A stretch of 64,000 nucleotides of DNA from Betaproteobacteria bacterium Ga0077527. Its GTDB lineage: Bacteria; Pseudomonadota; Gammaproteobacteria; Burkholderiales; SG8-41. A model generated the notes under the pieces. It was not told the origin of the DNA, did not search any database, and worked only from the letters and a program-made list of their open reading frames with translations. The stretch lies in assembly GCA_001464815.1 (NCBI GenBank), contig LNDW01000020.1:186001-250000 (forward strand), read 5' to 3'. Each line of letters begins with the position of its first letter. Positions within the stretch are counted from its first letter, which is position 1. Made by a program: the position numbers and the translations under genes. Shown piece after piece: positions 18,826-19,397 of the stretch.

Positions 18826-19397
18826 CAGAGAACCGGGTTTCCACCCGCTGCCGCCATCGCCGCGACCAGTTCACCCTGCTTCGCCGAAAGTGTCTTCAGC
18901 CAGCGCTGACCGCCGAAGGTAAAACCGATCCAGTAGCCGAGTTCGACAAGCTCGGGTTCGCTGAACTCGCCCTTCAACTGCGCCCACAAGGCATCATCAG
19001 CCTGATTGGGGTCGTACATGATCGCGTCGGCGTAACGCAGCGCGATTTTTTCACGCTCGCTGAACTTGGCTGATTTTTCATACTGCATCAGCTCCGCCAT
19101 CTTGCTGTCTGCCTGCCGCGCGGACCGCGCGGTGCCCTGATTGCTTCAGTAGCCGCATTCGATGGTGAAGGCGACGTAGGCGCGCAGCGTTTCCTTGAGG
19201 TCGTGCTCAAGCACACCGGCGCCGTTGTCGAACAGCATTTCCCGGGTCTGCGTGAACGAACGCATGACATCGGGCTGGTGGGCGCGGATCGCCTGGTTTT
19301 CAGGGCCGGGACGGCCGGCGGCAATGGCCTCGTCCAGCCAGCGGCGGATTTGCGGGTCGGTCACGGCATCGGGAGTCACATAACTGATGCGGGCCAT
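18825..19397 (-). CDS. carboxymuconolactone decarboxylase/AhpD-like family protein, putative selenoprotein with in-frame TGA (CGY-U) at 19146-19148
   Basis: ORFs 19146..19439 and 18825..19100 lie in the same frame, separated only by one TGA and 15 sense codons; combined ...VAFTIECGY[TGA]SNQGTARSARQADSKMAELMQYEKSAKFSEREKIALRYADAI; TGA is at the second position of CxxC. Confidence 0.75.
19116..19148 (-). promoter_or_regulatory. candidate bacterial SECIS hairpin with Sec UGA codon
   Basis: UGA-(19 nt)-loop; stem CCGCGC / loop GGUCC / stem GCGCGG immediately downstream of UGA. Confidence 0.65.

Follow-up and report, generated by a model that had tools for sequence, protein, structure and literature searches.

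A conserved hairpin downstream of an in-frame UGA: a probable bacterial SECIS element in an AhpD-like selenoprotein gene of a Betaproteobacterium

The gene, its in-frame UGA, and the adjacent hairpin

The window, a stretch of 64,000 nucleotides from contig LNDW01000020.1 of Betaproteobacteria bacterium Ga0077527, carries on its minus strand a putative AhpD-like selenoprotein gene with an in-frame UGA at codon 84 (Table 1). When this UGA is read as selenocysteine (Sec), the predicted product contains the sequence ...AFTIECGYU-SNQGTARSAR.... On the reverse strand, the UGA (19148-19146) is followed, in order, by AGCAAUCAGGGCA, CCGCGC, GGUCC, and GCGCGG. A sequence-only reading of this DNA had described a 6-bp stem with a GGUCC loop that begins 19 nt after the UGA, and the letters read out exactly as claimed. 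The stem-loop can alternatively be read as 7 bp with a GUC triloop. A gene for a TctC/Bug-type receptor is convergent with the selenoprotein gene, and one to five genes of this type are present near the selenoprotein gene at many of the orthologous loci.

Table 1. Features in the window (positions count from its first nucleotide)
Feature	Position	Strand	Remarks
Putative AhpD/CMD-like selenoprotein gene, 190 aa with U84	18825..19397	-	start ATG at 19397; terminal stop TGA at 18827-18825; open on both sides of the UGA
In-frame UGA, proposed Sec84 of a C81-x-x-U84 motif (ECGYU)	19146..19148	-	TGA in 33/33 distinct orthologues
UGA-hairpin spacer, 13 nt	19133..19145	-	codons SNQG plus first base of codon 89
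Candidate bSECIS upper stem-loop, CCGCGC GGUCC GCGCGG (6 bp, 5-nt loop)	19116..19132	-	arms 19132-19127 and 19121-19116; paired in 34 sequences
Apical loop GGUCC, probable SelB contact	19122..19126	-	GGNC[C/G/U] in all orthologues
TctC/Bug-type receptor gene	17789..18775	+	convergent with the selenoprotein gene
FdhA-family gene (C20:234960-237038)	48960..51038	+	no in-frame UGA

The AlphaFold2 model of the product (pLDDT 74, pTM 0.72) is matched by Foldseek to the AhpD-family structures 3c1l, 6k40, and 2prr (probability 1.0, TM about 0.65), and the protein is predicted to adopt an AhpD fold. A sequence search of the PDB gives weak matches only, led by AhpD-like proteins at an E of about 0.01. 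All 20 aligned proteins, Cys homologues included, share the same residues at positions 81 and 84 (with Sec written as C), and the C81 and U84 positions align with the CxxC of three Cys homologues (L052, L053, L018). The best NCBIfam match is NF053654, 'YciW-related (seleno)protein', at 58 bits over residues 1-160; the cut-off of 310 lies far above this score and also above those of a second family of Sec-containing relatives (Sec2, described below) and the other Sec-AhpDs of the genome. The peroxidase-related profile TIGR01926 gives 33 bits against a curated cut-off of 81.8. Because these scores are far below the NCBIfam cut-offs, the protein looks like a member of an uncatalogued subfamily. 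A thiol/selenol redox role, in AhpD-like reduction of peroxides or disulfides, would be expected, and the product would most likely be a selenol-based peroxide or disulfide reductase. Conservation of the neighbouring zinc-dehydrogenase, TctC-type receptor, patatin, and CoA-transferase genes as a group is limited to the closest orthologues; therefore, the context offers no clear functional clue.

Evidence from the single sequence and from orthologues

A UGA within a reading frame may simply be an ordinary stop codon or a nonsense mutation (in a pseudogene or through a sequencing error), and a hairpin beyond it may be a product of chance in GC-rich DNA. Comparable hairpins are present at a measurable background: 60 of the 1926 TGA triplets on both strands of the window (3.1%) are followed by a perfect hairpin of at least 6 bp that obeys the loop-G and spacing rules for bacterial SECIS elements. 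A GGUC loop on a stem of at least 5 bp is found at only one of the 1926, the TGA at codon 84. RNA folding, which the sequence-only reading had proposed as a check, gives a divided answer. The isolated 17-nt hairpin has an energy of -11.9 kcal/mol, in favor of the proposal, whereas the minimum free energy (MFE) structure of the 71-nt stretch 19090-19160 differs from the proposed hairpin and this stretch folds no better than its shuffles (z = 0.27), so that the longer-range fold does not favor the hairpin. The upstream strand that competes for pairing may be held by the ribosome while UGA84 is decoded. No long lower helix was found at the hairpin locus, and an Rfam scan of 18800-19450 returned no relevant match. 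Because of the 3.1% background and the alternative 71-nt fold, the single-sequence evidence for a SECIS hairpin is modest; the significance of the hairpin comes from its conservation among homologues.

Orthologues were collected by scanning GTDB species genomes (37 loci), with more from an order-wide sample; removal of duplicates left 33 distinct orthologues at >70% identity (72-93% identical). A phylum-wide sample of 399 genomes contained no genome besides the window's own at E <= 1e-25, and the family is therefore narrow in that sample. Six of the loci (L023, L026, L036, L046, L049, L055) come from assemblies titled Bordetella parapertussis and one (L050) from an assembly titled Chitinophaga pinensis; these MAG titles look doubtful, the gene being the same as that of uncultured Burkholderiales (74-92% identity).

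Every one of the 33 distinct orthologues has TGA at codon 84, which forms an invariant column in the protein alignment of homologues, together with 6/6 pairs of the stem. The loop is mostly GGUCC, with GGUCG, GGUCU, and a single GGGCC as variants. Downstream of UGA84, the frame accumulates 0.15, 0.11, and 0.43 substitutions per first, second, and third codon position (relative to the window gene, across 45 orthologous loci) and has no further stops; low first- and second-position rates, as in a coding frame, are seen on both sides of the codon. This retention of the UGA, the coding pattern beyond it, and the stem covariation described next argue against a chance hairpin after a true stop, an explanation that we regard as extremely improbable. 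The pseudogene reading in particular was rejected, since the UGA and the downstream frame are conserved in the orthologues.

The stem changes in a compensatory manner. In L030 the stem is CUGCGC/GCGCAG, a double change from C-G to U-A that keeps the pair and gives R94Q in the protein; L042 and L067 have CAGCGC/GCGCUG (C-G to A-U, R94L), and L051 and L071 have CCGCAC/GUGCGG (G-C to A-U, A93V), again with the pair kept. Each double change combines a synonymous substitution, at the third position of T89 or A90, with one that alters the protein, and the changes in L030, L042, and L051 lie on separate branches of the tree. Across 34 sequences, 204/204 pair cells are paired, six of which, in two pairs, are double-change cells. 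The covariation score is 0.110 versus 0.045 in shuffles, and 0/500 shuffles score as high. When the partner strand is slid by 1-3 columns, pairing falls to 19-62%, compared with 100% in register, and RNAalifold recovers the CCGCGC/GCGCGG helix and no other helix. Since 4/6 stem pairs never vary among the orthologues, the covariation rests on two pairs and on three or four events.

Conservation of the peptide SNQGTARSAR is high among the Sec orthologues, and the hairpin sequence could in principle be kept for the protein it encodes (the TARSAR peptide) or by codon bias rather than for RNA structure. However, synonymous codons are frozen inside the hairpin far more than elsewhere: third-position substitutions per codon amount to 0.416 upstream of the UGA and 0.433 downstream of the hairpin but to 0.063 within it, and the spacer, in which codons 86 and 88 are free to vary at their third positions, has 0.411. 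A comparison of the hairpin with synonymous drift, suggested by the sequence-only reading, thus comes out in its favor: of 171 windows of six codons, the one at codons 89-94 has the strongest synonymous conservation. Moreover, the R to Q, R to L, and A to V replacements each go with a synonymous change in the partner codon by which pairing is restored, an ACC to TCC change (T to S) leaves the paired bases intact, and the Cys homologues have GVAR[DE] or RSIK in place of the hairpin-encoded peptide. Conservation for the protein only was rejected on account of the compensatory changes and of codon freezing that is confined to the hairpin, and such an explanation is very unlikely.

Cys homologues, Sec machinery, and the proposed decoding mechanism

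Two outcomes that the sequence-only reading had set against itself, a hairpin lost from Sec orthologues or equally stable in Cys-containing ones, are both contradicted. Thirteen homologues (L052, L053, L018, L073-L082) have a Cys codon (TGC/TGT) in place of the UGA, whose position in the alignment is precisely that of the second Cys in CxxC. In all 13 the hairpin is absent, with 0-2 of 6 pairs, and the mean hairpin energy is about -0.2 kcal/mol in the Cys homologues versus -11.6 kcal/mol in the Sec orthologues. Two of these (L052 and L053) are 56-59% identical to the window protein, and L018 is a paralogue in the window's own genome (40% identical). The Sec2 family (L072, L083-L087), which is ~50% identical and has the motif TDCHYU-GNMNTAQFVR, carries the hairpin CCGCAC-AGUUC-GUGCGG at the same offset from its UGA. 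In the tree, the clades of the window's family (Sec1), Sec2, and the Cys homologues have no resolved order relative to each other. Other genomes of the same order carry Sec2 members, often alongside the window's family. Together, the Sec and Cys homologues make a clean comparative case, with compensatory changes that cost amino acids, in which RNA structure overrides protein sequence.

The SECIS reading is further supported by the host genome (3.4 Mb, 91% complete), which encodes the Sec-decoding machinery: tRNA-Sec (75.9 bits; ARAGORN anticodon TCA), SelB (429.8 bits) and SelA (574.3 bits), both near tRNA-Sec on contig C21, and SelD (426.8 bits) on contig C7, with an in-frame TGA within its gene. 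SelB scores above its curated cut-off in 13/14 sampled genomes that carry the AhpD-like gene; the one without SelB (G357) is only 83% complete.

Stable hairpins near stop codons can influence decoding in general, and the stem-loop might therefore serve UGA read-through, frameshifting, regulation, or termination instead of Sec insertion. Against such a role stand the exact alignment of the UGA with the second CxxC cysteine of the homologues, the full Sec machinery, and the bacterial SECIS geometry with a GGUC loop like that of E. coli fdhF; in addition, the minus-strand sequence has no poly-U tract after the hairpin, and the reading frame continues unshifted past UGA84. We assign this possibility a negligible probability.

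The favored interpretation, to which we give a probability of about 0.96, is that the hairpin functions as a bacterial SECIS element in an AhpD-like selenoprotein gene. The sequences themselves show the UGA, a conserved and covarying hairpin, a reading frame conserved on both sides, and a complete Sec machinery in the genome. By analogy with established bacterial SelB biology, SelB with Sec-tRNA-Sec and GTP would bind the GGUC-type apical loop ~19 nt past UGA84 and would deliver Sec as the UGA enters the ribosomal A site. Translation would then go on, yielding a protein of 190 aa with an AhpD fold and a redox center formed by C81-x-x-U84. Annotation without Sec decoding would truncate the gene at the UGA.

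The same genome contains other genes with an in-frame UGA. A second AhpD-like gene (L019, G000:C15:304074-304550; motif HGCHYU) has the hairpin UGCUGGGG-GGUCU-CUCCAGCA, with GGUC in a loop that starts 19 nt after the UGA. A third (L020, G000:C21:32390-32797; full ORF L020:1378-1986), also HGCHYU, shares its contig with tRNA-Sec, selB, and selA and has a GC-rich hairpin whose loop lies 20 nt after the UGA. The selD gene (L097, G000:C7:99371-100300) has its UGA within HGGGU-GC, and SelD itself is likely a selenoprotein with a candidate SECIS. Across these three genes, the loops of the candidate hairpins start 19-20 nt after the UGA.

Comparison with known selenoproteins and SECIS elements

A 2006 survey reported no selenoprotein other than FdhA in Sec-decoding Betaproteobacteria (PMC1794560). 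Unlike that picture, the FdhA-family matches in the window's genome (G000:C15:178385-180436 and the one listed in Table 1) lack an in-frame UGA. With the AhpD-like gene, the selenoproteome of Betaproteobacteria would be widened past formate dehydrogenase. It is conceivable, at slightly less than even odds, that the AhpD-like clade constitutes a selenoprotein subfamily not yet catalogued and that Sec decoding in this betaproteobacterial lineage is maintained to make AhpD-like selenoproteins and SelD, not formate dehydrogenase.

AhpD-like CxxU selenoproteins (COG2128/TIGR01926) are already known, the first having been reported from the Sargasso Sea (PMC1088965; see also PMC13188914). The window protein has in common with the Sargasso Sea protein the CMD/AhpD fold, the CxxU, and similarity to the TIGR01926 profile; it differs in scoring below the cut-off of that profile, in its motif (ECGYU-SNQG), and in belonging to a distinct, mostly betaproteobacterial clade.

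The bSECIS model describes a loop of 3-9 nt on a stem of 4-16 bp, a G at loop position 1 or 2, a UGA-to-apical-loop spacing of 16-37 nt, and an MFE at or below -7.5 kcal/mol (PMC13188914). The fit to the bacterial SECIS description that had been claimed from sequence holds for all four of these constraints. The hairpin lies just past the in-frame UGA, inside the ORF; its loop is 5 nt, its stem 6 bp, and its spacing 19 nt; the loop begins with GG in 33/33 Sec1 orthologues and AG in Sec2; and the energy of the isolated hairpin is below the threshold, although the 71-nt region prefers its alternative fold. SelA, SelB, SelD, and tRNA-Sec are all encoded by the host, and the stem covaries in Sec orthologues and is absent from Cys homologues. 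The window hairpin has nothing outside the model.

The hairpin is a real, well-conserved example of an already known type of signal and is not surprising. The E. coli fdhF SECIS has a bulged U, which is without counterpart in the perfect 6-bp stem of the window gene, and the two elements also differ in host gene and in stem sequence. In both, the apical loop carries GGUC some 19-20 nt downstream of the UGA; this motif starts at nt 20 in the window gene and at nt 19 in fdhF.
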